A stretch of 64,000 bases of DNA from Sphaerolaimus hirsutus (Eukaryota > Nematoda > Chromadorea > Monhysterida > Sphaerolaimidae), in contig OZ038452.1 in NCBI GenBank assembly GCA_964036195.1, positions 10,844,704-10,908,703 on the forward strand. Reading direction: 5' to 3'. Below the pieces are notes generated by a model. The model saw only the letters and a list, made by a program, of their open reading frames with translations, had not been told where the DNA came from and ran no database searches. This document shows positions 1-54,976 of this stretch, in pieces (position 1 is the first letter of the stretch; each line of letters begins with the position of its first letter). The translations under genes were made by a program, and so were the position numbers.

Positions 1-33
1 CAGGGCGAAGATGAAGATGTGTGAAATTGGTCG

Positions 34-2211
34 GTGCGTCTGGAAAAAATTATAAAACGTGCCTTTCCGAAACTTTCAAAAATTGAACGCGAAAAGATGG
101 CCGTGGCGAAATTTGTTAGTGGACTGTATCCTGACATCCGTAGGAATGTATCCATTACCGCTGGGGCTAAGTTTCAAGATGTAGTCAATAATGCGCGCAC
201 GCAAGAAAGTTTTCTGGAAATTGATAAGGACAAAGTGGGTGGTAAGAAAAAGTCAAAATCCAATGCTGAATTAGTTTCAGAAGCCACCAATTCGGTAATC
301 GAGCGAATTTTTGCTTTAGGGGGTGCGGGAGCTTTTGGAAATTCTCCGCCCACCTCGTCGGCGGCGGAAAATCCAAAGTTTGAGGAACAGCGAGTGAAAC
401 TGGAAGAACTTTCTAAGCAATTAGAGGATAAGGATAAGCGCTTAGTTGACTTGGAAAAGCAATTGATAGGTAATAATGCTGCGAAACCAGTTTCCAAATT
501 TAGGCCGCGTAAATTTGATGAGGGCTGTTATGAATGTGGGGCAGATGATCACTTTCGTTCTGATTGTCCTAAGTTGACAGAAGAGGAAAGAGCGCGCTTT
601 AGAAATTTCCGGCGTGGGCCGCCGCAGCGACCAATGAATAACTTTAGGGGTCCAGTGAATATGATGCGTTCTGCACAGCAACCCATATATCCCATGCAAG
701 CGGCGCCTTACCTGTATTATCCCCCTCCCGCGCAAATGTCAACCACTAATTGGTCTCCAGTGCAACAAGTGCAATCATCGCAAATGGCCATTGCAGCCGC
801 TCCGTCAAATGAATTGACTGCGTTAAATCCTACGCGCGTGTCTGCGAACTCAGTGAATCACGCACGCCGCGTGCAAGAAAATAAGGAATATGTGCGCATG
901 ATTAGGGTTTTGCCAGGTCTTGAAAGTTCGGATGAGGAAGCAGAGGATCCATGCAATCCGCCTGAAATAACGCCGCAAGAACATCAATTCATGCTCAAAA
1001 GAGAGGCATGGATTATGCCTTGGGTTTATGCGCATTCGTTAGACAGTATGATTTTTCGAACGAAATGGTGGGCTCAGTTGCAACATATGGGGTTGCAGGG
1101 GTTGAACATTAGTGGGTTCTGTGAGCATGCTGATGAGCATCCGCATGACGATCCTGAGGACACGTTGACATACGTTAAGTTAGAAGCGCTGCTAGAATTA
1201 ACCATGCATACGTTTAGATGTGAACCGCCGGACATTAGTTTGTCGCGAACGTCATCTGATTCTGAGCTGTATGTGTTGTCTGATTATTGTGAAGCAAACG
1301 TGCCAACTTTGTACCGAACGTGGTCGGAACCGAGTATGTTGCCCAGTGTGTTGAACCGTGTGTTTTTCCTGTGCTGTTTATTTACGTTTTTTGCAAGTGC
1401 CCACACCATGGGTGTTTCAGGTGGTGGCGTTGCTAAGAAAAAATGGGTGTCAGATGAGTGGATTTTGACCGTGCGAAACTTTCTTGAGGGATTTATCGCT
1501 GGAATGTGCACTTTTGTGTTTCTCAGATTTTTTCTGCCCGCTTTGTGTGAATTGGTGTTGTATTTGGTGTGCGTGGTGTGTGATTGGATAAAATTGAGAG
1601 TGTTGCGGTTTCAATTAAATCGCATGCAAGCGATAGAAAATAGGCGCAATACTGCAAGGGGTGCTACCCCCGTGACACTGCCGCAAAGGTTAAATCCAAC
1701 CAGCGCTAACAGTTCAGGGTATAGCGCCGATGTTGAGGAAACGCCAGTGAGTATATTTAAGCGTTTGCCGCCGCTGCGCATTCCTAAAGACACCGCCGTC
1801 ATGGAAAAAGTGAATGTAGTCACGCTGACTAGTGAAGAAATTGCAAACATCAAAAGTATTACGGCTAAGCGTAAAGAACTTGTGCCAATTTACTACAGTC
1901 CGTCGATTACGGTAGAAATTGAGGGGAATGAATACAAAAGGTGTCTGTTGGACACAGGTGCGATGAGGTCATTGTGCAACCCGCTAGTGTTGGCTAGGCA
2001 TCGAAATAATTGCATAGCGTTTGATGAAGTCACGCCTGTAGGGGGGTTGAAAAGCGCGTCTCAATGTAAATTGCAGATTGAGGGTCAGCTGGAACTTCAA
2101 GTGATGATTACCGGGAAAGCGTTCTCTATTGTGTTTCTGGTGATTAGCGGATTGTCGGACGATATTTTATTGGGCGCTGATGTGTTGAGGGCTGAGGCAT
2201 ATGGTTATTGA
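34..2211 (+). CDS. Gag (C-terminal part) and protease ORF of the Ty3/gypsy element
   Basis: 725 codons are open, preceded by an in-frame TGA at 22-24, so the true start is upstream and there is a break at the window edge. Residues 1-60 resemble the end of a gypsy Gag capsid region. A CCHC zinc knuckle, CYECGADDHFRSDC, lies near residue 165. A Pro/Met/Gln-rich stretch and an acidic region follow, then two hydrophobic segments (residues about 440-460 and 483-523) that could span a membrane, which is unusual between nucleocapsid and protease. The retropepsin active site is LLDTGA with D at residue 640, and the flap-distal ILLGADVL motif is near residue 712. The frame stops at 2211 inside the protease C-terminus, while the expected continuation is in the +1 frame from 2201. 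Confidence 0.85.
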   Translation: MRLEKIIKRAFPKLSKIEREKMAVAKFVSGLYPDIRRNVSITAGAKFQDVVNNARTQESFLEIDKDKVGGKKKSKSNAELVSEATNSVIERIFALGGAGAFGNSPPTSSAAENPKFEEQRVKLEELSKQLEDKDKRLVDLEKQLIGNNAAKPVSKFRPRKFDEGCYECGADDHFRSDCPKLTEEERARFRNFRRGPPQRPMNNFRGPVNMMRSAQQPIYPMQAAPYLYYPPPAQMSTTNWSPVQQVQSSQMAIAAAPSNELTALNPTRVSANSVNHARRVQENKEYVRMIRVLPGLESSDEEAEDPCNPPEITPQEHQFMLKREAWIMPWVYAHSLDSMIFRTKWWAQLQHMGLQGLNISGFCEHADEHPHDDPEDTLTYVKLEALLELTMHTFRCEPPDISLSRTSSDSELYVLSDYCEANVPTLYRTWSEPSMLPSVLNRVFFLCCLFTFFASAHTMGVSGGGVAKKKWVSDEWILTVRNFLEGFIAGMCTFVFLRFFLPALCELVLYLVCVVCDWIKLRVLRFQLNRMQAIENRRNTARGATPVTLPQRLNPTSANSSGYSADVEETPVSIFKRLPPLRIPKDTAVMEKVNVVTLTSEEIANIKSITAKRKELVPIYYSPSITVEIEGNEYKRCLLDTGAMRSLCNPLVLARHRNNCIAFDEVTPVGGLKSASQCKLQIEGQLELQVMITGKAFSIVFLVISGLSDDILLGADVLRAEAYGY

Positions 2212-3169
2212 TATGCCTGCGCGTGAATTGCGAATTGAGAGTGGCGATGCACGTAAAAAGTTGATTGTACCTTTTGATAATCCGCAGTCTGTTGTACAAG
2301 AACGGCATGTTTATGCGGTGGTAACTGAACCTACTGAAATTAAGCCGCGGCATGAGACGATAATTAGCGCAAAATTATCTGAACCTATTGATGAATTGAC
2401 ATTTGCAATTGAGCCTTTGAGTGAATTTCATGTGAAAACGGGTGTGTTTGCAGCTAATGCTGTCTATGAAAGTGCGAGTGAATTGTTTCCGGTAAGGTGT
2501 GTTAATGTGACTGAAGTGCCGGTAAAATTGCAAGTGGGGCAGAAAATTGCAATTGTAGAACCAGTGGAGTGTGTTTTACAAGTGCGCCGAGGTGATCCGC
2601 CTGCTGAGTGGGTGCGAGAATGTCGCGAGCGCGATATGAGTTTTACCGATACTATACTTGAAACTAGTGAGGAAAAAGTACCAACGGAGGGCACTGTACC
2701 TTCTAAGGCAGCGAATACGACTATGAAAGTGGTTTGTGCTGATGGGAGGGAAATGGATTTTGAGGTACCGGTCGAATTGGACGAAATTAAGCGACAACAA
2801 TTAAAAGAGTTGATTTTAATTCATCAGGATGCTTTTGCCAGGGATAAGTATGATTTGGGTTATAGTGAATTGGTCGATTATCGACTTCAGTTGACTAGCA
2901 AAATTCCGGTGGCGTGTCGAATGTATAGGTTGAGTTTGGATGACCAGCAGTACTTAGAAAAGCATTTAAGTTGCTTGCTTGAGCATGACGTCATTGAACA
3001 TAGTACGAGTCCGTACTGCGCGCCGACATTAGTTGTTACTAAGCCGGATGGTGCCAAGCGCATGGTGATAGATTATCGACAATTAAATGCAGTAGTTCAC
3101 GCTCCCCAATTTCCGCTGCCTAGATTAGACGACACAATAGAGTCATTGCACAGCTGCAAGTATTTTTAG
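2201..3169 (+). CDS. pol: Protease end and N-terminal reverse transcriptase of the Ty3/gypsy element
   Basis: This frame overlaps the Gag-protease frame by 11 bases and continues the protease fold. It then carries a linker and the first RT blocks, including the KPDG and VIDYRQLN motifs (near 3050-3090) and FPLPRLDD. It ends at TAG 3167-3169 within a run of five T (3163-3167), and the next RT motif continues in another frame immediately after. One extra T explains the break. The first ATG (2201) is not necessarily a start; the polyprotein would normally be reached by readthrough or frameshift from Gag. Whether the 2201/2211 junction is programmed or mutational cannot be told from one copy. Confidence 0.85.
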   Translation: MVIDMPARELRIESGDARKKLIVPFDNPQSVVQERHVYAVVTEPTEIKPRHETIISAKLSEPIDELTFAIEPLSEFHVKTGVFAANAVYESASELFPVRCVNVTEVPVKLQVGQKIAIVEPVECVLQVRRGDPPAEWVRECRERDMSFTDTILETSEEKVPTEGTVPSKAANTTMKVVCADGREMDFEVPVELDEIKRQQLKELILIHQDAFARDKYDLGYSELVDYRLQLTSKIPVACRMYRLSLDDQQYLEKHLSCLLEHDVIEHSTSPYCAPTLVVTKPDGAKRMVIDYRQLNAVVHAPQFPLPRLDDTIESLHSCKYF

Positions 3170-5972
3170 CAGTGTCGATATCAATCAAGCGTTTTACAAC
3201 ATTGCGCTGCATCCGGATGATAGACATATTACGTCGTTTCGTAATTGTTTTGGCCAATTTCAGATGAAACGTTTGCCGATGGGATTAAAATGTTCCCCGG
3301 CTTTAGCGCAGCGCTGTTTTGAAGTTACGATGGCTGGATTATTGCACCGGAATGTGTTGGTATATATAGATGATTTGCTTATTTACAGTAGGTCATGGGA
3401 AGATCATTTGAGTGACATAAGTCAAGTTTTGTCACGCTTGATAAGTAGCAGTTTTAAAATACACCCCAAAAAGTGTTTTTTCGCGCGCACAACCGCTGTT
3501 AAATTCCTGGGTTATATGGTAGGGCGTGAAGGGATTTGTATACCTGATGACAAGCGAAAGTATTTGAGTGATTGGCCTCTACCTGTGTGTGTGCGTGAAG
3601 TTAAGGCGTTTTTAGGTGCCGTTGGCTTTTTCCGAAGGTTAATTCATAAATGTGCTGAATATGCCGCTCCCTTGTCTAATTTAACTCGAACAAAAACTGA
3701 ATTAGGAACTGAAAAGTATAGCGGAAGTACTCCCGTAGATTTAAATGCGAATCCTGCCGCTTTGGAAGCTTTTAATAAGTTAAAATTGATGGTGGCTGAG
3801 AGTCCCTGTATACAGTATCCTGATCCCAGTAAACCGTTTATAATTATCACCGATGCCTCTAAAGTTGCATTAGCGGGCATTTTAGTACAGCGCGCTGAAC
3901 CTGCCACCGCTCTGCATGCGTGTTCATTTTATAGCCGAAAACTTTCTGAAGCGCAATCCCGATGGCCTGCAATTACGCAAGAAGCATGTGCTATTTTTGA
4001 GAGCATACGAAATTGGCATTGTTATTTAGCGGGCCGGCCGTTTGAAGTGTGGACCGATGCGAAAAGTATTTCATGGGTAAAAAATCCCAATTTGGAAACC
4101 CATCCCCATACGGGCTTGCACCGATTTGCGCTTGCTATTCAATCATATCAAGTTACTTTTAAACATTTGCGCGGGAAAAGTAATGAATTGGCTGATGCTT
4201 TGTCGCGCCGGCGTGATGCACCTGTTGAATTTGATGAGCGTGTTAATTTGGATGAAGCTTTTGAAGAATATGCGTTTGATATACCTGTTGATGAATTGGC
4301 GAGAATTTTGACTGAGGAAATGGCGCTGTTGACATCTGAAGAACATTTAGCTTATCAAGCAGTAACTAAGGCTATGGCGCGATTGGCTGCTGCTCAAAAT
4401 TGGCTGAAACATGCAAAAATGAAGTCTTTGGAACCGTCAGTTACGGTAGCTGCTGAACCGCCAGTGGCAAGCGTTGCTACTGTGCGGGCGCCACATCCAA
4501 TGACTATGCGTGTGCGAAGTAAACCGAAGGCGGAGTCCCATTCTGAAAGTGCTTTGAAATCGCCGCCAAAAGGTGACGATGCGCCTAAATTAATGGCTGG
4601 TGGCCGCCGTTCCGCTCAATTAAGTAAGAAACCGGAAAAACTCGATGCTTTACCTCCTCCCATCACTCCAATTGAAGAGTTGTCGCGTTTGCAAAAAGAA
4701 GAACCGTATATAATTACAATTCGATGCATGTGCAAGGAATCTACTTTGCGTAGAGCCCCACCGTTTTTTATTGATCAATTTGATGTGGTTAGACGTGATG
4801 CGGATCCGTCAATATTAGTGGGTGAAAGGAAATATGACCCTGCGTGCATCCCCCAGTCATTAGTTGTCACTGTGTTAGAATTGGCGCATAACCACCCCAC
4901 TGCTGGACATTTAGGTGTGATGAAAACATTTGAAAGATTGCGCGAATTTGCTTGGTTTACAAATATGCGACCAGAATGTGCTAGATGGGTTTCTACTTGC
5001 CCTTCGTGCAACGCAAAGAAGGGATTGCGTTGCTCGATGAAAACTCAAATTCAGAGCCGGAAAATCGCTAAGTTTCCCGGTGATTTTATTGCGATTGATG
5101 CAGTAGGGCCATTGCCAATTACCGAAAAAAGGAATGTGCATGTATTGGTATTTGTGGATCAATGTACACGTTTTGGTTTAGCAGTGCTCGTCCCTAATTT
5201 GAAACAAGATACTGTGGCTATTGCGTTCTTGCAACATGTGTTACCGATTTTTGGCGCGCCCGCTGTAATCTTATCCGACAATGCACCAAGCTTCATTGGC
5301 GGCATTTTTGCGGAGTTGCTGCATTATCTAAACACGGTGCAGCACAAGTGCTTCAATTATACGCCGAAAGGAAATGGTTTGGTTGAGCGCAGGAATGGCG
5401 TCTTAATGGAAATAATTTCGCATTATGTGAATGGTTCGCATTCGGATTGGGACAAACACTTAGGCGCCGCTGTCTATGCGTATAATACGTCTAAGCACCC
5501 CTCTATGAAAGTGACGCCATATGCGCTGCTATTTGGATCAAATTCTCCGTCACTTTGGGAGCGTATGATAGAGCCGACGGGAAATGGCACCGATAAGACC
5601 GATAAGCCGACGGCGTACAGTCCCTTTGTGTCAAATTTAGACGCGCGACTTTCGGACGTCCGCACGGCCGCGCATTCGGCTTTACAATGCGCGCAAGAAA
5701 AAGAATGTTTTTATACAAATCGCAGTGCGCGTCGCTTGAATTTGAAGCCCGGTCAATCAGTTCGTGTTTATTCGCCCCGAATTCTTCGAAAGTTAGGCCG
5801 CGTTAAGAAGTTCACGCATCATTATATTGGCCCGTATGAATGCTTAGATTATGTGCATCCTATTGTGACCATGTTTAATAGGTTGTCTAAGAAAACTTAT
5901 ACCGTTCATGCTGATCGCGTTAAATTGACAAATGAACCAATTAATCCCACCTATTCGCAGATTTTCGGTTAA
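3170..5972 (+). CDS. pol: Reverse transcriptase, RNase H and integrase of the Ty3/gypsy element
   Basis: The frame is open from about 3168 and the first ATG is at 3264 (902 codons from there). RT has the catalytic VYIDDLL motif near 3360. RNase H follows, with the acidic residues in IITDAS, the QEACAIF glutamate and WTDAKS. The region around 4440-4660 is a variable linker. Integrase has an HHCC zinc finger (HNHPTAGHLG to CPSCNAKK, about 4890-5020) and a DD35E core: D in FIAIDAVG, D in ILSDNAPS and E in GLVERRNG. A GPY/F-type module (HHYIGPYE) lies near 5820, typical of Ty3/gypsy. All key catalytic residues are present. The ORF ends TAA at 5970-5972. Confidence 0.9.
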
Positions 5973-6513
5973 AAACCCTGAGATTTTCCGCTCTTCAACC
6001 TAAAGTGCTCCAATCAATTATTCTGTTCAAAAATTTAATTAGAAGTCCATTTTTTATTATTATTTGGATTATTCACGTTTAATTCTGGCCGTCAATTCGT
6101 GGTGAGTTCGGGGTTGCAAATTTTGTCTTTTTGTTTGCGCGTGCGCGTGAGGTAAATTTGAAGTAAAAAGTTGTTTTTTTTGTGTAAAAGGTAAAGCGCG
6201 AAAATTTTATAAGTGTTATTTGTTGTTCGTTCCTAATTGTCGTCGCAGTTTAATTCATCAGTTATTCATACTATCGCATTTATATTTCGTTCTAAATTCG
6301 TTCTTTAATTTCATTCTCATTTTCGCCCATTTCGCAACAAAATAAAAATTATTTTTGGCGCAATACGTTCAACGTAGTGCGTTGAAAAAAATTCGCAACT
6401 TTTCAGTTAGGGTGTCGCTCAGACCTTCGTGCATTTCGGTGCCGACATTCTGGGTGGCGCATTTTAAGTAGCAATAAGTTGTGTTTTCCGGTTCTCTACT
6501 TTGAGTGTGAAAG
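5973..6513 (+). other. Spacer between integrase and the helicase ORF
   Basis: 541 bases rich in T and A, without an ORF of note. This would be the position of a splice acceptor or internal promoter for a downstream gene in env-carrying gypsy elements. Pyrimidine-rich tracts are present (for example 6295-6330), but no site stands out. Confidence 0.5.
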
Positions 6514-7311
6514 ATGAGCAGTTCGGGCGGCGTACATATTGGTGGGTATGGTGCTAGTTCTAGTTCGTATTGTGGCGGGCGCATAGCCAAGGCGCCGCTC
6601 AAGTCGTGGACTTCTCATGGAAAACAGGGCGGGGACACTATTCCGCCGCTGCCCTACAATCCCCCTCGAAACGCTCGATTGGTTTGTCCTGAATTCGTCA
6701 TAAACCAAAAGTTGTCGGGAATAGTGGATCGAGTTCACGTCGGCAACGAACAGCGTCCTACCAGTTATCAATGTCACATTCGTTTTGACGGCGATGCGCA
6801 GGCGATTTTGGAAAGTTATCCGGAATGGTCGGAAGCGGAAAGGGCTTATCCATTTTTCACCTATTCGGTCAACAAAGCGGAGCGCGCTCGCGAGCGATCG
6901 GTACAGAAAATTCTGAGGGAATATCGCGAGACTAACGAGGCGTACGACATGTTTTTGCCGCTTGTCCGCCACGGCATGCATTTTGTCGCGACTGGTATTA
7001 GTAGGGTTAGCACCGATCCAAAGTATTGGGAATTGCGCGGCGTCACCATTATGAAAAATGACGCTCAAATGCCATTGTTTTTGGGCCGCCCGGTTGTCAT
7101 TGTTTCGCAAGGACAAGTTGACCTCTCCGTCGATGAACCGGCGTCGGAAATTTCACAGAGGGGACAGGAAAATCGCGAAGGATATCATGCTTATCCGGCC
7201 AAGTGGAGGTATTTGCGTCTGAGGGCGGCGTTCACTTCACCCCTTCGCTATACATTAGTGCACCCCCCTTCAAAGGAGCCGACGAGCGGGATCTGGGCCC
7301 TGAAAAATTGA
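6514..7311 (+). CDS. Extra ORF, N-terminal piece (unrecognised domain)
   Basis: 265 codons open from ATG 6514, which follows the GTGAAAG context at 6507-6513. I do not recognise the domain. It starts with a Gly/Ser-rich stretch, then mixed alpha/beta sequence with charged helical segments (RARERSVQKILREYRE) and a hydrophobic patch (LFLGRPVVIV). The frame ends at 7311, but an overlapping frame (7203-7823) of similar composition continues, so a frameshift lies between about 7203 and 7311. Same strand and similar base composition as gag-pol suggest it belongs to the retroelement. Confidence 0.6.
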   Translation: MSSSGGVHIGGYGASSSSYCGGRIAKAPLKSWTSHGKQGGDTIPPLPYNPPRNARLVCPEFVINQKLSGIVDRVHVGNEQRPTSYQCHIRFDGDAQAILESYPEWSEAERAYPFFTYSVNKAERARERSVQKILREYRETNEAYDMFLPLVRHGMHFVATGISRVSTDPKYWELRGVTIMKNDAQMPLFLGRPVVIVSQGQVDLSVDEPASEISQRGQENREGYHAYPAKWRYLRLRAAFTSPLRYTLVHPPSKEPTSGIWALKN

Positions 7312-7823
7312 TTTTTGCGCATAGTGAAAATGTCATGGAAAGCAACGTGCACCCGCACGCTGGACAATTAGGCGTGGCGCATGTAGAGTATCATGCTTTT
7401 GACGACGCTGGCAAAGTTAACAACTTTTACTGGGCTCATGCGTATGGCGTGCGTATTTTTTCAGCGCGGGAAATTGAGGCTGGTATGGAGTGGAAGGGTG
7501 AAATGAACAGAAATTACCTTACCTCTCAGCTGCAGCTCCGTTCAATTTTTTTAGCTGCTGCTAACGTGTGTCACGAAGCGCATTTGCGATACACTGCGAC
7601 TAGGGCGAAGGCGGTGCGTGCGCAGGTGACTTGGCAAAATGGCCCGCGGGGATTAATTGCGATAATTAGGTGGGCGCGCGTGCACTTAAATCCAGCCGCT
7701 GCGATGCGCGACACGGCCGAGTGGCACAGGAATAAGGCGCAGGGCTACATGTTGAATTTCACTTCCCTATGTCGTCGCTACAAATCGTCGAAGCTGATCC
7801 CCGGGGGGAAGAGCGTGCTCTGA
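7203..7823 (+). CDS. Extra ORF, second piece
   Basis: 206 codons in the third frame, continuing the protein after a probable frameshift. No known motif was recognised. Helical segments are likely around the sequence RSIFLAAANVCHEAHLRY. A further frame change is needed between 7769 and 7823 to reach the next piece. Its status as one gene with the flanking pieces rests on the strand, the overlap and the absence of any other coding explanation. Confidence 0.5.
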   Translation: MEVFASEGGVHFTPSLYISAPPFKGADERDLGPEKLIFAHSENVMESNVHPHAGQLGVAHVEYHAFDDAGKVNNFYWAHAYGVRIFSAREIEAGMEWKGEMNRNYLTSQLQLRSIFLAAANVCHEAHLRYTATRAKAVRAQVTWQNGPRGLIAIIRWARVHLNPAAAMRDTAEWHRNKAQGYMLNFTSLCRRYKSSKLIPGGKSVL

Positions 7824-8206
7824 CTGGCCGCCCGCAAATAAGTTTACGCACGGTCAGCGCTGACATCACCGCCGAGGCGGTACAGTTGGTCGCCAAGCTG
7901 GATGTGTTGGTGCCGCAGGCGCTGTCGCCACATTTGATGCCCAATTGCAATTACATGGTGCGCGGTTCCGCTTTGTCGCCTAGCTATAATGGCCGCATGG
8001 AAATTTTGGAGCGTTTGTGCATAATGGGGCCTAGTGGTTACCGGCCAACAGAGAGTGACACCGGAATGCTAAGTGTGGAAGACCAGGTCAAAATGGCGGT
8101 AGTGCTACACAAACAGTTGAACCAGGTTGAAACTAATTGGCAGCGAACGCTCGAAAGCATTGAGTCTGACGGGTTGTATGCTGCGGTGCGCAGAGGCACA
8201 TGCTAA
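7769..8206 (+). CDS. Extra ORF, third piece, ending at an in-frame stop
   Basis: 145 codons ending TAA at 8204-8206. The same frame stays open directly after the stop and leads within 45 codons to a Walker A motif, so the stop looks like a point mutation inside a longer gene. The segment probably lies just before the helicase core, where Upf1-like proteins have regulatory domains. Confidence 0.55.
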   Translation: MSSLQIVEADPRGEERALTGRPQISLRTVSADITAEAVQLVAKLDVLVPQALSPHLMPNCNYMVRGSALSPSYNGRMEILERLCIMGPSGYRPTESDTGMLSVEDQVKMAVVLHKQLNQVETNWQRTLESIESDGLYAAVRRGTC

Positions 8207-9256
8207 GACTTATTGCAAGCGCACCAGGGTGATTTTCGGCCGCAGGAGGGGCAGGGGCGTGTAATTGCGTCGGTTATTAAGTCTGTGCGAAAAACTGCGC
8301 CGCTGTTGTTGATGTGTGATTCACCGTTCGGTTCCGGTAAAACGACTGTGCAAAGTCAGTGTGCGTACGCGGTTGCGTATAAATTTACCGAGAAAAATGA
8401 CCCGCCGAACCCGCTGAAGAGGGAATTACCCTCTGATGCGAACAAAAATGCGCTTTACCACTCCACAATGATTACCTGCAGTGTGAATTCGGCCGCTGAT
8501 GAGTCTGCTAGACGATCGTTGCAAAGTTTGGCGGACATTGGTCTGCCTAATTTGGAAACGGTCGTGGAAGTTTTGCTGCGCAGTAGAGAAAGTTGGACTG
8601 CGATGGATGACAAACCGAATTTTGAAACACCTGGCTATGCGCGTTTTTGTCAGGTGCGCGCCGCTTTTGCGATTCGTGTGCTGAGCCCGTTGTTGGAAGT
8701 TGATGACCGCTACGTCGATATGACGCTCCAGCAATTGCCGCTGTTGAATTTGATCGCGCAAACTATGCCTGTGCATGTGATTCGATTGAATGACCACTGG
8801 CTAACTGCATATGAACGCTTTACCGCTCAACGCCATATTTGTGACACTTTGAACAAAATCGTCGCTAACAATCAGCATCCCGCCGACATTTTTGAGGCCA
8901 TTCGGTCGCAGTTGCCTTTGGTTCGTTTGTCCATCGACGAAGACGACGAGGATGATTTGGTGCCGCTGGACGATGGTCAAGAGGAAGGTGTGCAGGCGTG
9001 GGGGGCCGCGGCTGGCTTTGTCGACGGCGAGCAGACGTGGGGCAAAATTTACAAGCGCGAAATGCGGCGCCTCGTTAGGGTGGCCACTAGGTTGCATAAG
9101 GTGGTGTTGAATGTGCTGCAGCCCGGACAAGTCCATGTGACTTTAGATTCATCGCGCGATAAGCGACTGCAAGTTTTGAAATATGCCGCGGTGTTTGTAG
9201 ACGAGGCGTCGCTGGCAGATGAAACTGCCATTTTTGGCGCGGTTTCAAACGCTTGA
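8207..9256 (+). CDS. SF1 (Upf1-like) helicase, RecA domain 1
   Basis: The frame runs to TGA 9254-9256. A glutamine near the start (QGRVI) may be the Q motif. Walker A (motif I) is CDSPFGSGKTT with GSGKT at 8330-8344. About 285 residues later is motif II (Walker B) VFVDEASLADE near 9193-9225; DEAS is typical of the Upf1/Dna2/senataxin group. The long spacing leaves room for the 1B/1C insertions usual in Upf1-like proteins, and it includes an acidic Asp/Glu patch near 8940. The TGA falls between motifs II and III, and the frame continues after it, so it interrupts a real domain. Confidence 0.8.
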   Translation, partial: DLLQAHQGDFRPQEGQGRVIASVIKSVRKTAPLLLMCDSPFGSGKTTVQSQCAYAVAYKFTEKNDPPNPLKRELPSDANKNALYHSTMITCSVNSAADESARRSLQSLADIGLPNLETVVEVLLRSRESWTAMDDKPNFETPGYARFCQVRAAFAIRVLSPLLEVDDRYVDMTLQQLPLLNLIAQTMPVHVIRLNDHWLTAYERFTAQRHICDTLNKIVANNQHPADIFEAIRSQLPLVRLSIDEDDEDDLVPLDDGQEEGVQAWGAAAGFVDGEQTWGKIYKREMRRLVRVATRLHKVVLNVLQPGQVHVTLDSSRDKRLQVLKYAAVFVDEASLADETAIFGAVSNA

Positions 9257-11062
9257 CTCCCCCACAATGGCTTGGTGCTTTTGTTTGGCGATAGCAAGCA
9301 GTTGACCCGAATGGTCAGGCCGCATTCATGGATCGCTCCGATCCTGAAACCTGATCCATCGTTGATCAACAGGTTGGTGGAAGGTGTGTTGTGTCCAATT
9401 CTGAAGCTCGAGACTGTTTTCCGCGGCCACGACGCGCTGATTCAAGCGAATTCTGTCGCTGCGTACGATGGCCAATTGCGCGCGTTCCACGATTACAGTC
9501 AGTGGCGGGACAATTTGCCGCTCATGGCTTGCGGTGCCGATCAGGTGCCTTTGTCTTCTGTGATCGTGCACATGGGTTTTGAGATGAGCGAGGGCGTGTC
9601 TGTTAAGAATTTGGCGGAAGTGGACATTGTGGTGCGCGTTGTACAGCAGTTTGTCATTTTGGCGCTGAACAGCGAGGGCGAGAATGTCGTTCCGTGGAGT
9701 AATTTAGAAAGTGCTGATTCACTGCTGGTTGTGTGTTTCTATTCAGCGCAGGAGAGAAAAGTAATTGACGAATTGGTGCATGTGAGGTGGGCGCAGTTGT
9801 TAGGGGGTGAGGGGTTCCCCGATTATTTGGTGACCCCAGCGTTTTGGCGGAAAAAAGTCATCACTGCTGATCGAGCGCAAGCTCGTGAAGCGCATGTGGT
9901 GATTGTGTCATGTGTGCGGGGTAGTGTGCCGCGAGTGGACGCTACTGGACATCCGTCGCAGCGCGAGCGCGATGTGATGGACAGAATTGGCTTTTTGGCG
10001 ATGCCGGAGCGGTGCAACGTGGCCACGTCTCGAGCCAAAACGGCTAGGGTCGTGATCATGAACGCCGCTACCGTGCTGCATTCTGAGTTTTTCTGGCGTT
10101 TTGTGGCGTTAGAATTAAGAAAGGGACACGTGTTTGCGTACCATGAGCGGCGGTTGTGGGAGTGTGACCCGTTGGCTAGGTTTTTGAATCACTGGAGAAG
10201 TGCCCCGGTCGATCTGCAAGAACCCGCTCCGCCGGTGCAAGAAGAAGAAAATGAGGTTCCGCCGGAAGAAGTTCAGGAGGTGGATGTGAGCGAACAGCGA
10301 GCGTCCCCTCAGCCCGATGCTAGCGTCGCTGCTCCCGATTCCCCAGACGTGCAAATGTTGCCGCCAGAAGAGCAAGAGGAGGAGCCAGAGAAAGTGCAGC
10401 CGCGCGCGGAGGAAAAGGCGGTTTGTTCTTGGTCTCGGCGTCAATATCGCAGTCGCCGTTGCTCTCCCTCGTCGAGTTCTTCCTCTTCCTCTAGTTCGTC
10501 GTTGGGTTCGTCAGAATCGGGATCGAGTGAAACCGATTCGGCTTCGGAGTCTGAACGCGCGCCGCCCGTGCCAGCACATAAACAGAAACCGCACCCGGAG
10601 GTGGAGGTGATGGAGGTGGAACAGGAGCAAAGTGAACAAAGTGCCCAACAGCTGGAACCAGAGGAGTTGGAAGGCCAATGGCAGGAACCAGGGCCAGAAA
10701 CTGAAGAAGCTAACAATGCAGTCATTGGAGAGAAATTGGATGAGTTAATTCAAATGGCGGGCGAGTTGAACACCGAGCTGGACGCCGAGCGACAGCAACA
10801 GTCCATGAACCCAGACAGACAGGTGCTTAGAGAAATGGACGCCATCCAGGAAGAGGTCAATGAAGTTGAGCCCATGCAAGAGGATGCACAGGAACAGGAG
10901 CAGCCTGAAGCAGTGGTCGCACAGCCGCTGCAGCAACCTGTTCAGGTTGTTGTAGTTGGCTCACCGCCGCCACCGCAAGAGGAACAGAGTCCGAGTCCGC
11001 CCCCGCCAGTGACTCCTACTTTGGCAGGTTTGGAGCCAGAGGAGGAGATGGAAGCAGAGTAA
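9257..11062 (+). CDS. SF1 (Upf1-like) helicase, RecA domain 2 with acidic/Ser-rich tail
   Basis: In frame with the preceding piece after one TGA; the first ATG-type start is at 9272. Motif III is LLFGDSKQL (about 9275-9305). Motif IV-like VVCFYSAQERKVIDEL lies near 9725. Motif V-like sequence TADRAQAREAHVVIVS is near 9860-9910, and motif VI CNVATSRAKTARVVI near 10010-10060. These are the residues expected of a Upf1-like SF1 helicase, not the Pif1-like helicase of Helitrons. From about 10200 the protein becomes a long tail rich in Glu, Gln and Pro with a poly-Ser run (10460-10500). The ORF ends TAA 11060-11062. Role in the element unknown; RNA binding or unwinding is an inference. Confidence 0.8.
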   Translation, partial: LPHNGLVLLFGDSKQLTRMVRPHSWIAPILKPDPSLINRLVEGVLCPILKLETVFRGHDALIQANSVAAYDGQLRAFHDYSQWRDNLPLMACGADQVPLSSVIVHMGFEMSEGVSVKNLAEVDIVVRVVQQFVILALNSEGENVVPWSNLESADSLLVVCFYSAQERKVIDELVHVRWAQLLGGEGFPDYLVTPAFWRKKVITADRAQAREAHVVIVSCVRGSVPRVDATGHPSQRERDVMDRIGFLAMPERCNVATSRAKTARVVIMNAATVLHSEFFWRFVALELRKGHVFAYHERRLWECDPLARFLNHWRSAPVDLQEPAPPVQEEENEVPPEEVQEVDVSEQRASPQPDASVAAPDSPDVQMLPPEEQEEEPEKVQPRAEEKAVCSWSRRQYRSRRCSPSSSSSSSSSSSLGSSESGSSETDSASESERAPPVPAHKQKPHPEVEVMEVEQEQSEQSAQQLEPEELEGQWQEPGPETEEANNAVIGEKLDELIQMAGELNTELDAERQQQSMNPDRQVLREMDAIQEEVNEVEPMQEDAQEQEQPEAVVAQPLQQPVQVVVVGSPPPPQEEQSPSPPPPVTPTLAGLEPEEEMEAE

Positions 11063-13490
11063 TGGTAATTTAGGTGTACAGGAATTTTTTTGTTTTTGTT
11101 TTTGTGCGTTTTTGTTGAGTAAACTTTTTACCAGTAGAATTGAGTTTTCGTTGAATTGAAAATTGAATTTTCATTGAGTTTTACCGATTCAAAAGTTTTT
11201 TTCTGTTCTTAACAAAGTGTGGAAAAGTACGTATTTTTGTTAATAAATTTAGAGTTGGTTTAAATAGTTCTTAAAAACGGGGATTTATTTTAATAGTTTT
11301 GCCGTGTTTCGATTTTAGCCGGGAGGTAAAATGTATGGCTGGTGGAGTTTGTGAGCAAAAGTGGGTGTCCAAAAAATTGTAAAATTCCAAAAATTTTAAA
11401 CGTAAATGTATATACAGTTTACCTAATGAATTTATGTAGAGGGTTGTTTACACTTCCGAGCTTACAGTAATTAAAACATTTCAGTTCTACTTCGACGTTG
11501 GGTTTGGGCGATTTGGTGGGCGAACGTGGCGTTGACGTTTTCGGCGACGTCGTTGGCTACGTTGGCAACGTGCATTTCCGTTTTTCCGGTGCCCCATTGT
11601 GTTATGTATGTCCTTTTGGCCAAGGAAGGATTGGAGGTATTGAGGATCTGACACAAAGTTGACGCTGTGATGTAAATAGTTGTTTTTCTCTTGTTTAGAA
11701 TTTTTATTCAATTAGGTAGTTTTTTTATAAAAAAGTGAGACAAGTGAGGTGGCAACAATTTTATTTGTGACAGATTGATTAAAAAGTATTTTTCCAATTT
11801 TACCAGCAGTTTAGATTGCATAATAAAGTTTTGTTTATTTTCTCTAAGTAAAAAAAGTGACGCTGCAGTTACGTGTCGTAGTGCGTGAATGGTCAGTGAT
11901 GGCTGAGGACACATAGGTTGATATTTGACTAACTTTCGCTGTTTTTTTTGAAGTGAGGGCCGTGGCTATTGATCTAGTATGTACTGTGCATTTCTGCATT
12001 TCCGAGTTGAGAAACAGAAGTTAATTTACAAGCGATTTTACAAAAGTACACTGATTATAGCGGTGCGGTGATGATTGGTGTTGAAAATGAGAGGTAATTA
12101 AAAGAATTGAGTCTAACTCGACAGACGTGATTTCATGTTTAAATGCCTACTCCCTTGGCTTGTTGTGAGAACAGCCCAGTCCGCCGATCTCATCGAAACA
12201 AGCACCCATACAGTGACAAGTGTACTTATTTTTGAGTGAATTGAGTAGTTCGGTATTTTCGGGGTGTGGTTTTTGCACAGTGCGTATGGGATCAAAAGCC
12301 ATGGTTAACTAATTAGTATTCTGGTAGCAGAATGAGTGGTGTAGCAGCGAGAGTGGTCATTTTCTAGAGATAAGTGTCTTCGGTGGTTAGTGGCTGTTGC
12401 GTTTCGGCATGTGGCAGTGGATTCACTTAGATATTTCGTTCAGTTTTGAATTTCTAAAAAATCATGCAATCTAAACATGCATTTGAGTTAAAAAGATTGA
12501 AATTATCAACTTTCCAGTTTCCAATCATTTGCGGTAATATTTTTATTTTAGCGTCATACCGATTTCACATTCATTTTAACGTTAAGTTTGGTAGGGAATA
12601 GGTAAAACTCGAGTATGTTAATTTTTATCTAATTTGCAACTTCGCTATTTTTTTATCTACCTAATCCTAGATTGATTGTTTTTTTTGAGTGTTTCCTTTT
12701 CCCCTAGAAAACTGATAACTTGACATTCGGATATTTAGGAATTTATGCAAATTTCGTGGTTGAACTTTACTATACAAAGAGATGAAATAATAAGCCGCTT
12801 GTTTTCCTGTTTTCTCCCTGAATATTTTGATAAGTGTAAAGGTGATCTGATTTGAGTGCGTATTTTATCACTCTGGTGGAATTTTCGCTTAGCGTCTTTA
12901 AAATGGTACCGTAATTGATTTTTTCCTTGACAGTCAGTGTGAAAGTTAATTCTATTCGCCTTACCGGTATCCTAATCATGGATTATCCCTCTTACGACAT
13001 TTTTTCATTGTGCATTAATAATACGTGCGCTTCTTACGCTTTGGATATCAACGTCATTTTTGTTTACTATACGTTATTTTTGCTAATGGGATTGTTGTTC
13101 GCGTGCCTATTTGTTTCGCTAATTGCTGTGTGTTTCCCCGTTCGTGGAGGTGGTTTTGGATTTTCGGTAGAATTCGCTGAGTAATTTTTGAATCGCCCGC
13201 CATTTTTTCGCGCTAAAACAAGTTTTTACAGTATCTCCTGTGTTTTTCCTGTTCTTTTTATTCTTCTCGCATTCGTTCATTTTCTATTTTTGTACTCGTT
13301 CTCGTTCCCATCCATTTTTGCACGTGAATTCTTTGTGTTTTTGTGTACTTTGATCGACATATCCTGTAAACTGATGCCATGAATAATTTTAGGTATGCCC
13401 ATTTTCAAATTCCGTGTGTCCGTCAAATCGGCTGTAAGCATGCTCCTCGTGGTATGTGGAAGTGTTGTCTGGACTTGGCTTATGTTGTTG
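11063..13490 (+). other. Non-coding tail of the retroelement, probably polypurine tract and LTR U3
   Basis: AT-rich, T-homopolymer-rich DNA with only short ORFs. One 89-codon frame (12915-13184) has a single hydrophobic segment but no other support. The LTR start was not found: no clear polypurine tract followed by TG is visible, though purine-rich stretches occur near 11728-11745 and 11950-11960. Confidence 0.4.
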
Positions 13491-13690
13491 CGTATAAAAG
13501 CGTACCGTAATTTAGAGTAGGGGTCCATTCAGTCGAAATTGCTTCGGTTTTATTTCTTGGAGTGTTTTCGAAGGTTTTGTGCCGCTGGTTAGAAACTCGC
13601 TCTCAGTGTGTTCCCTGTGTTCTATCTGAATGTGTGAATTCTGAGTCTAAAATCGCCTAAAATAAAATCTCTTCTAAAAAACTTCGGACC
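13491..13690 (+). promoter_or_regulatory. Probable LTR core promoter and poly(A) signal
   Basis: TATAAAAG at 13493-13500 is followed by an initiator-like TTCAGTC at 13528-13534 and, 130 bases on, by AATAAA at 13661-13666. A TATA box, start site and poly(A) signal within 170 bases is the U3-R-U5 arrangement of an LTR. It lies at the expected end of the element. It would need the 5' LTR, which is outside the window, for confirmation. Confidence 0.5.
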
Positions 13691-13985
13691 CCTTGGAGTA
13701 AATTAGACATTCAACTAATTGCTAGTGCGTTGATAAAAACGCCATTCGCTAAAAAGCTAACTTAATTGACGTAGCGTACACCTGTGACATTCACTTCGGT
13801 GAATTCACCATTGTGCGTTGCGAATTCAATCGGTAGTCAATTTTCCGTTGCCTTACTTTGTCGCTCATCCAACGAGTAGGTGTGAGATCGGTAAAACTTG
13901 GCAGTTTGCCATAGTGGAATTTGGTTGAGTAAAAAGCAGCCGGTGAAAATTCATGACACATGCTTGTTTGAAGCGGATCTGTGCT

Positions 13986-14349
13986 ATCCCACATCTAAAC
14001 CCATCCCACATCCTGGCCCATAAATTGGATGTCTGTCATATTTGATGCGTATTCCTTGCATTTTTGGTGGATAATGAATGCAAAAAAATGTTGATGATGA
14101 AAAAGTGCTACATTAAGAGCCACTTTCAATAACTCTGTGATTTCGCAGGTCAAAGTTGTACTCAATAACACTGACTGCACTCAATAGTTGTCAACTGTCA
14201 TGTTTTAACACATGTGGTGTCAAATTGCCTTCAAACACTCTCACATATTATATATTAGATTGATTACGTTGTGGCATCATGACTTTTTTGAAATTACCTA
14301 AACTAAATAAAGTCTATTTGAGAGACAAAGTAGATTTAGATGTGGGATG
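13986..14349. repeat. Short inverted-repeat element, ends ATCCCACATCTAAA
   Basis: The left end reads ATCCCACATCTAAACC and the right end TTTAGATGTGGGAT, an inverted repeat of at least 14 bases enclosing 364 bases with no ORF of note. Superfamily unknown. Flanks show no clear duplication. Confidence 0.5.
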
Positions 14350-14695
14350 AGCCTACGTTGTTTGAAGCTGCCTGTTGATATGTGGAAGAAATTTGTAGAG
14401 CAAACAAAATGTTTATTGTGTTGGTTATTTGAATAAGAGACCCATGTCTGATTTTTGTTAACATTTGTTAACCACAACTATTTGAGATATTCCTACAAAA
14501 GCAGGTTAAAGGGTATAGGTACATCACATTTTGAGCTGCCAACTATCTGTGAAGAAATGAGTAACCCACTTTTGCATGTCAAAAAATAAACCTTGCATTT
14601 CTTTGTGTCTCATTTATTAAACCATCGTGTTACACAAAAACGACAAAGGATAGAATACCTTAACAAAATAACATATAATTTTGATGTATAGTAAA

Positions 14696-31700: not shown

Positions 31701-34700
31701 AGTGAAAGCGGCTTGTGTTGCGACAAACATGCGCAGTCAGGATAGTGAACTCATGGCCCTGGGCAGTCAGAGTGCTATGGAACATAATGTATTTGATAGG
31801 CAACTCGAGTTTAAACAGGAAGGTTGGTGCATTTTAATGTTATCAATATAACATTTAAAAACCTTTGAAAAAACCTCGGCCATCCCTATTTCTCATGCAT
31901 ATTTCCGGGAAAAATACATGTTAATATGAAATTTGGAGATCTCGTTCAATGCTGTTTATGCCGATTTTGTGTGTCGCAAAATATAAATATATCCTAGTAT
32001 TCACCAAATTAATTGGTTGCCACGACGAGTCGCCTCTAAAAGTCGCTTCTAAAAGAGTTGTCTGCTTCTAAAAGTCGACAAGTCCACAAAATGTGATTTT
32101 GAGTAAATGGCATTTTAAGTTTCGGACCCAATTCCAGGCCTGTGGTGCGTGTCCAATTTGGCTCTCTCATGCTTTCCATTAAGTTCCATATGTTGACAAT
32201 AAAGTGTCAAATTTTCAGCCCCTGCTCTCAACCTTTATGTGAAAAATTGGGTGTCCATAAATTTCCATTCGGTCAGAGCAAAACTGTTTTTGGGAGGGAA
32301 TTGGACTTGTCGACTTCTTGCACTAACAAACATTTTTGTTCCCGCGGAGGCCGAGGCTGCCTTATGGGCAATTTATGCACTTGTCGACTTTTAGAAGTAG
32401 CTGTCCATAGTGGACATATCACCCTTCTTGCTATTTTTTCCCATAAAAAGGAAGCGGAGGAATGGACTTGTCGACTTCTTGCACTAAACTAGATGGACTT
32501 GTCGACTTCTTGCCCGAAATTTTAGCATTTTTCCCCAAAAATGTCAAATGTGGCACTTTGCCATATGGGCATGTGAGGTCAAATTTTTTTTAATGAAAAA
32601 TGATAATAAAATGTGCGGAAGTAGCCCCAGATGAAGTTTCCGGGCCTAACTCGAAATTTTCATATTTTGGACTTGTCGACTTTTATAAGTAGACGCCTCC
32701 TTTATATTTTGCAGATATTTAGAAAATATAAATCTCCCGAGAATGTCCAATCCAAGGACGTACGCAGGGGGGCGGCCGGAGGTTCCTGGGCCGGACATAA
32801 AAATTTGCCAGAAATGGCACTTTTCTAAAACGATTTTGTAGGCTCTTCTAAAAACATTTTCTCACAAATACCCACCCAATGATTACTATGTATTGTTCCG
32901 GAATCTAACAGCATTAGAAAGGTACCCAGCATGTTTCTAATATGAAATATAGGTATATAAAGATTAGGGATGGCCGGTGTTTTTTTAACCGTCCTTTTTT
33001 TTAAAAACGTTGTTTTTTTAAAACAGAGGCATCGAAACTGTTTTTTTTAAACATCAGCAAAAACATTTTGTGCTATATACTAGGTATTTTGCAATTTTTT
33101 TTGCGCGCAAGCACGCAATTTTAGATACACTTTACCATTGGTGATTGTTTTCATTGGTTTTGAGGCATTTTTAGTGTGAAAGCTTCCATTTGTTCATGCT
33201 ATTGTGTAATAATAAGCCGTGATATGTTAGTGTAGCATATAATATCCAGCCAATGTGCTCCCACATACTTCTACAGTGTGATCCATCACTGTCAAAGGAT
33301 TAACCTTCTATTATAACCTTACAACTATTATACCGTGCAGAATAGTTGAGACTTTTTGCGCTGCATGATTAATGTTGCCAGAATTTTGAAATGGTTGATA
33401 TGCAAAACATTTGGATACTATACATGGGTACCCTGGGGGGTTGACTACACATGCCCGGGATGATCGCCCCCCGAGTTCACATCTGTGTATATTCCTAGTG
33501 CACAAACATATTAACTCAGTTTGTTCATGTTTCAGAATAGTTGAGACTTTTCTTGTTTTGGACAGTAGCCACTAGGGTGTCAACAAAAACTTTTTGGCGG
33601 AAAACGGAAACGGAAACGGAAAAATTTTTGCACTTGCCGGAAAACGGAAACGGAAACGGAAAAAATCTTGCACCTGCCGGAAAACGGAAAACGGAAAAAT
33701 GAAAGGCCGGAAAACGGAAACGGAAACGGAAAAATGTGCTGAAATTATGCCGGAAACGGAAAAAAATTGCTGAAATTTTGCCGGAAACGGAAAAAAATTT
33801 GCAGAAATTTATCCAGAAATCAAAAAATTTGCAGAAATCTTGCTAGAAACAGAAACAATTCACATAATTGAGAACCTGCATGCATGTTTACCAGTTTGGC
33901 TGAAACACAAAACAAAGAATTGAGCCAGAAAATGAAAAAAGTTGGAAAAACAGACAAATGAGCAAGAAAACGGAAAAAAGGCGGAAAAACTGAAATTTCA
34001 GCGGGAAAACGGAAAATGAGCCGGAAAAACGGAAACGGAAACGGAAAAAAAATTTAGCAGCCGGAAAACGGAAACGGAAACGGAAAAAAAATTGCCTGCG
34101 GAAAGCGGAAACGGAAAACGGAAAGTTGACACCCTAGTAGCCACCCAGTATCTCACTTTAAAGGCCTTATCCAATTCCTATGTTCATTTTTTAACAAATA
34201 TTTTACCATGGCAACTGCTTGCCTACATCGCTGAGCTCTGTGTGCAGCAAGAAACATTCTAAGCATGAACAGCATATGGCAATGCATATATGGAAATGTG
34301 GCATTTATTTATTTTTTGCTGCAGTTTTGCATCCATAGCCAACAACTCAGAAATGGGGGTAGGCATACTACTGAGTGGGGCTTTTTGGTGTGTAAATTTG
34401 AGGTTTTGGCTTTGTTCTATTCTGGAGAAAAGTTGGCCCGACTCTGAATGAGTAATTTGCAATTATTTTGGATGGAATGAAGATGGAAGTTTGTAAGTGC
34501 TATAACTTTTGATTGGAAAGAGATATTGAAAAAACGTTTTTGTCATATTAATTCTCTCTGTCTGAAGTATGTTATTGACTGTTCAATAACAACATTTTCA
34601 TGCTGGAAACCCCAGTAAAAAAACGTAAAATATTTAGACACCATTGAAAACTTTGAAGTGCCATAACTTTGGAAAGATTGGAAAAAGATATTGAACTCAT

Positions 34701-54454: not shown

Positions 54455-54976
54455 AGGGTCTCAACAAAAACTTTTTGGCGGAAAACGGAAACGGAAACGG
54501 AAAAATTTTTGCACTTGCCGGAAAACGGAAACAGAAATTTTTTGCATTTGTCGGAAAACGGAAAACGGAAAAATGAAAGGCCGGATAACGGAAACGGAAA
54601 CGGAAAAATTTGCCGAATATATGCCGGAAACAGAAAAAATTTGCTGAAATTTTGCCGGAAACGGAAAAAAATTTGCAGAAATAATCCAGAAATAAAAAAA
54701 TTTGCAGAAATTTTGCTAAAAATGGGAAAAATTCACCTAATTGAGAGCCTGCATGCATGTTGGAAAGTGAAAAAAGTTGGAAAAACAGGCAATTGAACTG
54801 GAAAACGGAAAAAAGGTGGAAAAACCAAAAATTTAGTCGGAAAACGTAAAATGAGCTGGAAAAATGGAAACGGAAACGGAAAAAAATTAGCAGCTGGAAA
54901 ACGGAAATGGAAACGGAAAAAAATTTACCTTCAGAAAGCGGAAACGGAAAACGGACAACGGAAAGTTGACACCCTA
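54455..54976. mobile_element. hAT-like AACGGAAACGG element, second copy
   Basis: Ends TAGGGTCTCAACAAAAAC and GAAAGTTGACACCCTA; flanks CCCCTTAT (54447-54454) and CCCCTTAC (54977-54984), 7 of 8 matching. The interior purine repeat is the same as 33573-34136. Confidence 0.82.

Follow-up and report, generated by a model that had tools for sequence, protein, structure and literature searches.

In the window, the whole 64,000-nucleotide stretch of Sphaerolaimus hirsutus DNA that was analysed, a 17.4-kb Ty3/gypsy element encloses a helicase gene, ORF3, between two LTRs; the genes and LTR features described below lie on the plus strand. The 5' LTR sits just outside the window (L005 2576-4710; C3:10841279-10843413) and pairs with the 3' LTR at 11350..13958 (TGTGAG...GACA), the two differing at 18 of 2135 aligned sites (0/553 and 18/1582), while a 473-nt block at 11903..12375 is present only in the 3' LTR and missing from the 5' LTR. 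A target-site duplication, CATG, follows at 13959..13962 and is identical to the 4 bases directly before the 5' LTR. The earlier note had seen "LTR-like promoter sequence" behind the helicase, which was correct as to the kind of sequence, but what lies there is the 3' LTR itself. A TGGTAGC... stretch, starting 2 nt past the 5' LTR both in the window copy and in the related family B described below, is a candidate primer binding site, to which no tRNA was matched.

The part of the gag frame within the window (25..2211) contains a CCHC knuckle at about 523-573 and a protease at its end, the corresponding Pfam matches (zf-CCHC and gag-asp_proteas) both lying under the cut-off, as well as two hydrophobic stretches at about 1336-1416 and 1480-1608. 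Ahead of the window the frame goes on for 417 open codons in L005. Because gag is interrupted by an in-frame stop at 22-24 and gag/pol by two frame breaks, decay affects the whole window copy, and not ORF3 alone; in another copy of the same family (family A, L051), 95% identical, gag is arranged in the same way and this stop is missing. The first piece of pol (2189..3169; 58% to family B) shows frame changes at either end and comprises a linker and, probably, the start of the reverse transcriptase. It is followed by a second piece (3141..5972) coding for reverse transcriptase, RNase H, H2C2 and the integrase core, with Pfam matches to RVT_1 (9.3e-26), RT_RNaseH_2 (3.7e-26), Integrase_H2C2 (1.2e-15) and rve (6.7e-9). 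Ty3 Gag-Pol ranks first of 31 matches for the window pol (2.3e-51), and the PR-RT-RH-IN order of Ty3/gypsy elements is present, the protease by its sub-threshold match. A protein database yielded 361 relatives of pol at E<=1e-3, and AAA_12 is absent among the 120 of these that were listed. No env-like ORF was found after the integrase between 11063 and 16065 (six frames, no Pfam match at E 0.01); the post-integrase place, which is the env site of errantivirus-type elements, is occupied by ORF3 in the window copy.

Structure and affinity of ORF3

ORF3 extends from an ATG at 6514 to 11062, on the same strand as the integrase, whose frame ends at 5972. The 541-nt gap between them (5973..6513) is without clear coding signal, as judged from codon log-odds trained on the copy's own gag/pol and taken in 180-nt steps, which are at most 1.3 in all frames from 5973 to 6510. 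From 6511 to 10830, the open frame of ORF3 scores above zero at every step, with a single step (9391) at which another frame outscores it, and from 11011 to 14430 the scores of all frames are negative. In the window copy, ORF3 consists of five overlapping or abutting open pieces: the reading frame shifts near 7.2 and 7.77 kb and is interrupted by in-frame stops at 8204-8206 and 9254-9256. The N-terminal region (6514..8206, three broken frames) shows no match in Pfam, NCBIfam or PHROGs at E 0.1, yet all three of its pieces are collinear with an intact family-B ORF3 at 36-39% identity, and the first 79-80 residues are 88-93% identical to three family-A copies. The first RecA-like part (8207..9256) carries motif I (CDSPFGSGKTT, block from 8306) and motif II (VDEAS, block from 9182) and closes with an in-frame stop, and the second one (9257..10180) carries motifs III (LLFGDSKQL, from 9269), V (TADRAQAREAHVVIVSC, from 9860) and VI (CNVATSRAK, from 9998). 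An acidic, Ser/Glu/Pro-rich tail with the stop codon (10181..11062) completes the frame; no match to it was found in the family-B copy examined. Structure prediction without alignment gave mean pLDDT values of 34.6 and 34.1 for two helicase pieces. These features agree with the earlier note, which had described a broken helicase frame behind the integrase on the same strand, with ordered SF1 motifs, an unrecognised N-terminal part and an acidic/Ser-rich tail.

A profile search for the Upf1-like helicase core was successful for one of its two domains: AAA_12 is matched with 3.2e-20 and 73 bits in the window ORF3 and with 88 bits in a family-B copy (Pfam cut-off 27), whereas AAA_11 reaches 18.7 bits (0.0016) and 19.1 bits, respectively, under its cut-off of 27. 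Because of this, membership in the Upf1-like group is claimed from AAA_12 and the motifs, not from both domains, and ORF3 appears to be Upf1-like in a broad sense, at group level only. The label given in the earlier note, Upf1-like, is therefore retained for the group and does not extend to UPF1 proper, since the UPF1 match in single-sequence search is weak (E about 0.1) and the N-terminal half, where a Cys/His-rich domain was looked for, has no Pfam match. Motifs I, II, III, V and VI and AAA_12 are common to ORF3 and the cellular Upf1-like SF1 helicases UPF1, SMUBP-2 and SEN1/senataxin, a group which also includes MOV10 and ZNFX1; the long unrecognised N-terminal half sets ORF3 apart from them. 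The best solved match of the intact family-B ORF3 is 8ftm ("5'-3' RNA helicase-like protein", 5.1e-6), which we take to be a Sen1/senataxin protein, with UPF1 behind at 0.1. Single-sequence searches further returned SMUBP-2 at 0.029 and 0.0023, the latter ranking first for the C-terminal piece of the window, and found nothing for the motif I-II piece. ORF3 and host UPF1 share 32% over 69 residues, and Viral_helicase1 scores 13.6 bits in the intact family-B ORF3, under its cut-off of 21. No relatives of the helicase pieces were found in IMG/VR or prokaryote genome contigs, searches in which the relatives of pol were only four prokaryote-bin contigs, too short to reveal the part behind the integrase. 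In the protein database, two pieces gave no helicase relative among 6385 and 7996 word-sharing candidates, from which length limits excluded most full-length relatives. A weak phage match was also seen by tblastn (25%, 2e-5).

Copies, LTRs and selection

The genome contains three families of such helicases. Family A, with the window-like helicases, comprises 117 of the 128 genome matches that were scored out of 450 candidates. Of these 117, 113 are at least 92% identical, the window's own copy counted, and 71 are listed with frames no shorter than 1500 codons, a single one of which is flagged with internal stops. For AAA_12, 150 matches were scored out of 454 candidates; 148 of them belong to family B, with frames of at least 1300 codons in 99 of the 148, and the two matches outside the family represent host UPF1, a clearly different protein. 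A third family, C, is also present. The copies were located by their helicase, a route to which same-family copies having lost the helicase are invisible, and an integrase directly precedes the helicase in 18 of the 20 family-B copies sampled, in 3 of 3 from family A and in the single one from family C. LTR pairs with 0-4 mismatches and a 4-bp target-site duplication surround integrase and helicase in six of seven compared family-B copies, while no LTR pair was found in the pieces examined of the seventh (C7). Paired LTRs, TG..CA ends and a short target-site duplication are therefore present in these six and in the window copy, which alone represents family A in the LTR analysis. The gap between integrase and helicase is about 525 nt in three family-A copies, and about 227 nt separate the integrase stop from the ORF3 ATG in family B. 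With one fixed frame read and broken copies included, motifs III, V and VI occur in all 20 family-B copies, motif II in 19 and motif I in 16. Family B also shows a Monjiviricetes_fusion match, which sits between gag and protease and shares one frame with them.

The proposal of the earlier note that a Ty3/gypsy element carries the helicase is upheld by the enclosing LTRs and target-site duplication and by the gene order repeated in three families. As to the cases it had named as contrary, copies without the helicase were not found among those located via this gene, and a helicase standing alone with introns was not found either, ORF3 being intronless in open copies. In a more distant gypsy element of this genome, the roughly 4.5 kb inspected behind the integrase contain no helicase; the gene is thus not needed by all gypsy elements here.

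A possible splice acceptor, TTTTCAG, stands at 6400 in the window; expression of ORF3 by splicing to it was considered and dropped, as this acceptor is not conserved: it is missing before ORF3 in the examined pieces of all three family-A copies, and an acceptor-like match is absent from the scanned region of 19 of 20 family-B copies, the sole match (L031) lying past the start of the frame. The TTTTCAG sequence occurs 32 times in the window, against 16.9 expected, which is a mere hint of a nematode host. Queries with the nematode spliced leaders SL1 and SL2 were without match, in the control genomes as well.

Purifying selection acts on the helicase of family B, with dN/dS values of 0.133 for the N-terminal part, 0.058 for the helicase and 0.090 for the tail (66 non-independent pairs from 12 copies, restricted to those with open ORF3); the value for the family-B integrase is 0.032, from a different set of five copies of equal frame. 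Amino acid identities between families A and B are 42-47% for the helicase parts and 54-72% for the pol parts, and divergence of both is expected if the gene has been inherited since the common ancestor. For ORF3, GC3 is 0.56-0.62 in the helicase pieces of the window and 0.63-0.64 in family B, as against 0.39 for pol and 0.47 for integrase (p about 1e-14 for pol against ORF3), which indicates a different origin or constraint. Because of the many copies, the upstream integrase, the LTR pairs and the low dN/dS of family B, the helicase is regarded as an established gene of the element, maintained by selection, and we have hardly any doubt that it belongs to the element's anatomy.

Possible function of the helicase

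Taken together, we consider it probable (about 0.8) that these elements represent a Ty3/gypsy clade with a third gene, an Upf1-like SF1 helicase located past the integrase within the LTRs, which would act on element RNA. We infer that ORF3 is expressed as a protein, and that this protein, an active ATP-driven helicase or translocase, has the RNA of its own element as substrate. Host Upf1-like helicases (UPF1, MOV10, ZNFX1 and ERI-6/7) are central in RNA decay and transposon control, and the ORF3 helicase may be a private counterpart of such UPF1/SEN1/MOV10-type enzymes. It would join the genomic RNA of the element (or an RNA:DNA hybrid) and remodel it, and the long, multi-gene, unspliced RNA would thereby withstand host surveillance and silencing until it reaches Gag and is reverse transcribed. 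This specific role in RNA protection is the mechanism that we favour, but tentatively, at less than even odds. Likewise short of even odds is the wider proposal of a virus-like gypsy clade in which gag is followed, in this order, by an envelope-like fusion glycoprotein, protease, reverse transcriptase, integrase and Upf1/Sen1-like helicase, and whose own helicase, of RNA-surveillance type, would guard the genomic RNA against decay by the host and against silencing through small RNAs; in the window family, two hydrophobic stretches are all that stands at the place of the glycoprotein, and the helicase frame is open in many copies. An element retaining its own Upf1-like relative under selection, with very young copies, provides a handle on the surveillance of long unspliced LTR-element RNA and widens the list of enzymes adopted by retroelements, and the near-identical and diverged copies within one genome make the question testable.

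It is rather doubtful that the helicase instead aids reverse transcription or transcription by clearing RNA structure or RNA:DNA hybrids, in a Sen1/senataxin-like manner unrelated to silencing. The better match of the intact family-B ORF3 to 8ftm (5.1e-6) than to UPF1 (0.1) and the length of the element would fit such a function, but the similarity is weak, SMUBP-2 comes first for the C-terminal piece of the window (0.0023), and to our knowledge most gypsy elements manage without a helicase enzyme of their own. A function as export or nuclear RNA-handling factor is unlikely. A precedent exists in CERV, an extra protein which the gypsy element Cer1 of C. elegans requires to export its unspliced genomic RNA, but according to the accessible part of the report CERV is without similarity to known retroviral proteins and is produced from a spliced mRNA (PMC10309623), and no conserved TTTTCAG-type acceptor was found before ORF3 in 3 family-A and 20 family-B copies. 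There is very little to be said for a benefit to the host and not to the element: the portion available of a study on insect retrotransposons suggests an antiviral role for their viral SF1H domains without demonstrating it (PMC6338049), but selection on many young mobile copies beside an integrase is as expected of an element gene. That a helicase gene or pseudogene of host or foreign origin stands beside pol by chance, outside the element, would agree with the different GC3 values and the broken frames of the window copy, but is refuted by the LTRs and target-site duplication around the helicase, the preceding integrase in 18 of 20 sampled family-B copies, the often open ORF3 with purifying selection in family B, and the clear difference of the host UPF1 matches.

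The combination of a gypsy element with an integrase-adjacent Upf1-like helicase within its LTRs was not found described. Cer1 and the LTR elements of bdelloids, whose ORF3 codes for a DEDDy exonuclease or GDSL protein, share with the present elements gag-pol, the PR-RT-RH-IN order, TG...CA ends, a short target-site duplication and an extra gene placed after the integrase and before the 3' LTR, and a helicase ORF3 was not found among the bdelloid elements as far as described in the accessible text (PMC5408684). Insect retroelements also carry SF1 helicases, for which counter-silencing and RNA quality control have been proposed, but as far as the available parts of these reports go, they derive from virga-like virus replicases and reside in LINEs or Ty1/copia fusions (copia-type in Aedes and Leptopilina) (PMC5563155, PMC6338049), while the helicase studied here is of the AAA_12/Upf1-like type and encoded by a separate ORF in gypsy. 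The Monjiviricetes_fusion match of family B recalls Anakin, BEL-Pao elements with a chuvirus glycoprotein according to the available part of the source (PMC7642597), in that a glycoprotein of negative-strand-virus type was captured by LTR elements; in family B, which is gypsy and not Pao, the match lies in one frame with the flanking gag and protease.

The window element and its helicase frame

The first 14 kb of the window are occupied by a Ty3/gypsy element on the + strand, whose RVT_1, RNase H, H2C2 and rve domains are located at 3141-5969 (+ strand, Pfam) and whose pol has Ty3 Gag-Pol as nearest solved protein (2.3e-51). As the earlier note had claimed, an SF1 helicase frame, ORF3 (6514-11062), follows the integrase, with a gap of 541 nt, an AAA_12 match of 3.2e-20 (Pfam), and motifs I, II, III, V, and VI all in order, while AAA_11 stays below the Pfam cut-off. 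The frame is indeed broken: it shifts twice and is interrupted by two in-frame stops, which leaves five open pieces. These are tracked by a codon signal like that of gag/pol from 6511 to about 10830, except in step 9391, in which a different frame has the higher score, and the signal is weak or negative on either side of ORF3. The description of the N-terminal part as unrecognised holds for the databases, since its three pieces have no match in Pfam, NCBIfam, or PHROGs, but not for the related elements: all five pre-tail pieces are collinear with an intact ORF3 of family B, a second helicase-carrying gypsy family of this genome (36, 39, 36, 42, and 47% identity).

The window starts inside gag, and the 5' LTR therefore lies outside, in the preceding 6 kb (fetched piece L005, 2576-4710), where it pairs with window 11350-11902 and 12376-13958. 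The former stretch shows 0/553 mismatches to the 5' LTR and the latter 18/1582, including 14 transitions. Both LTRs start with TGTGAG, end with GACA, and are bordered by CATG at their outer ends, giving an element of 17,383 nt from LTR to LTR. Because the LTR pair encloses the helicase frame on both sides, the helicase is carried by the element, as had been proposed. A block of 473 nt (11903-12375), which adjoins the 553-nt stretch without mismatches, is present in the 3' LTR and absent from the 5' LTR, a difference possibly due to post-integration gene conversion, insertion, or deletion. The 3' LTR also contains a 68-codon frame with one long hydrophobic stretch (12978-13184), which may have arisen by chance. 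The lesions of this copy are a gag stop at 22-24, two frame breaks in gag/pol, and four in ORF3; their rates do not differ (3 in 7222 nt vs 4 in the 4549 nt of ORF3, p 0.44), indicating that the decay of ORF3 runs along with that of the remaining copy.

Helicase-carrying families in the genome

The earlier note had proposed looking for further copies with the same layout, and copies of the helicase are abundant. The helicase searches covered the whole genome, 348 Mb in 762 contigs. The AAA_12 profile gave 454 candidates, of which 150 were scored, and the window helicase piece gave 450, of which 128 were scored, so that all counts are lower bounds. Apart from host UPF1 (two of the 150), the scored AAA_12 matches represent family B (at least 148, 89.7-97.8 bits), with frames of at least 1300 codons in 99 of the 148. 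The window piece retrieves at least 117 matches of the window's own family A among the 128 scored, two of them being pieces of one place; 113 of the 117 are at least 92% identical, counting the window itself, and 71 of the 117 are listed with frames of at least 1500 codons, one flagged with internal stops. The same search yields at least 11 matches of a family C (51-52% identity), 10 of these 11 with frames of at least 1330 codons. Family B is treated here as one family, and pieces were taken from 27 of its matches, in one case on two occasions; L043, the last match in this sample, has a more diverged integrase (48% vs about 65%).

Among 20 of the 148 family-B matches, taken from all parts of the list, 18 have a same-strand integrase that terminates some 200 nt upstream of the ORF3 frame, and no integrase is seen ahead of ORF3 in the other two (L029, L031). 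A fixed frame of 1332 codons is uninterrupted in 12 of the 20, and reading from the common ATG gives 13 open copies in a slightly different set. As judged from the up- and downstream pieces of seven family-B copies, one of which (the C1 copy) also belongs to the 20, six are bounded by paired LTRs of 1675-1681 nt that show 0-4 mismatches and are flanked by a 4-bp TSD, and no pair is present in the pieces fetched for the C7 copy. In all three family-A copies sampled, an integrase 97-98% identical to that of the window precedes an ORF3 whose first 79-80 residues, the full extent fetched, are 88-93% identical, and one family-C copy has an integrase of 61% identity and the helicase 3 kb further on. 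The order of integrase and helicase thus recurs in all three families, among copies that were all located via the helicase, a search to which helicase-less copies are invisible.

The pooled dN/dS of 12 open family-B ORF3 copies is 0.10 (66 non-independent pairs of copies chosen as open, mean dS 0.13), with values of 0.133 for the N-terminal part, 0.058 for the helicase, and 0.090 for the tail. The integrase shows 0.032 (five copies picked for equal frame), and the family-B helicase is thus constrained nearly as tightly. Families A and B share 42-47% identity in the helicase parts and 54-72% in the pol parts, a divergence indicating that the helicase gene is old in this clade.

Type, source, and possible role of the helicase

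Judging from sequence comparison, the earlier label "Upf1-like" is valid as a group name, but the enzyme is not UPF1. Among solved structures, the intact family-B protein matches 8ftm ("5'-3' RNA helicase-like protein", which we take to be a Sen1/senataxin protein) at 5.1e-6, followed by UPF1 at 0.1. The C-terminal ORF3 piece of the window matches SMUBP-2 (0.0023), NAM7 (0.085), and UPF1 (0.1), and the piece with motifs I-II has no match among solved structures. Unlike the helicase of insect LINEs, ORF3 is not of the virga type, the score of an intact family-B ORF3 with the Viral_helicase1 profile being below cut-off. The GC3 values differ between helicase and pol in the window (0.56-0.62 vs 0.39) and between ORF3 and integrase in family B (0.63-0.64 vs 0.47), and reach 0.84 and 0.93 in two host exons of 111 and 69 codons, coding for a SET domain (38837-39445) and a short-chain dehydrogenase (52321-52902); these differences hint at a foreign or host source of ORF3. 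The rest of the window also contains two tandem arrays of CGGAAACGG-rich units (33586-34124 and 54479-54955), about 20 kb apart.

ORF3 occupies the same place, after pol and before the 3' LTR, as env, CERV of Cer1, and the ORF3s of bdelloid elements. Export of the unspliced genomic RNA of Cer1 requires CERV (PMC10309623), and Morozov and colleagues proposed that the viral SF1 helicases of insect retrotransposons may suppress silencing or act in RNA quality control (PMC5563155, PMC6338049). From these analogies and the enzyme class, we put first a role in which the predicted ORF3 protein would remodel the element's own RNA and so keep it from decay and silencing. Close rivals are that the predicted helicase would aid reverse transcription or nuclear export. 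The search for a splice acceptor ahead of ORF3 revealed none that is conserved. Among the listings and passages of open full-text papers that were covered, none describes a gypsy element in which a separate ORF encodes a Upf1-like helicase; the most similar systems described there join SF1H to copia-type domains, as in Aedes and Leptopilina (PMC5563155).

A glycoprotein match upstream of the protease

The family-B frame ending in the protease matches Monjiviricetes_fusion (PF24664) just over the cut-off (3.2e-7 to 1.3e-6) in all four copies tested (L009, L011, L017, L019), and this env-like glycoprotein lies 3' of the CCHC knuckle where the latter is seen. The usual place of envelope-like genes is after pol. 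In the C7 copy, the glycoprotein-bearing frame also encodes an RQKR motif together with a single hydrophobic segment, and one frame of the C4 copy combines Retrotrans_gag, CCHC, glycoprotein, and protease, with CCHC and protease below cut-off. In two family-A copies, that of the window (1336-1608) and L051, the corresponding place holds just two hydrophobic stretches. The protease and pol frames overlap by about 40 nt in five of seven family-B copies (L009, L011, L013, L017, L019), which suggests a programmed frame change, and they share one frame in L051.

A remote gypsy element (G000:C1:17083923-17073500, pieces L057 and L058; 22% in pol) has an open frame of 6806 codons with the glycoprotein match directly upstream of PR-RT-RH-IN, and no helicase was detected within about 4.5 kb past its integrase. 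The genome contains 1557 candidate glycoprotein places, and all 68 that were scored are over the cut-off. One of them, L056 (G000:C7:2975500-2981500), shows a match of 6.8e-18 late in a frame of 2900 codons, which contains DUF5641, a domain typical of Pao elements, as well; L056 is probably a Pao-type element with a captured glycoprotein.
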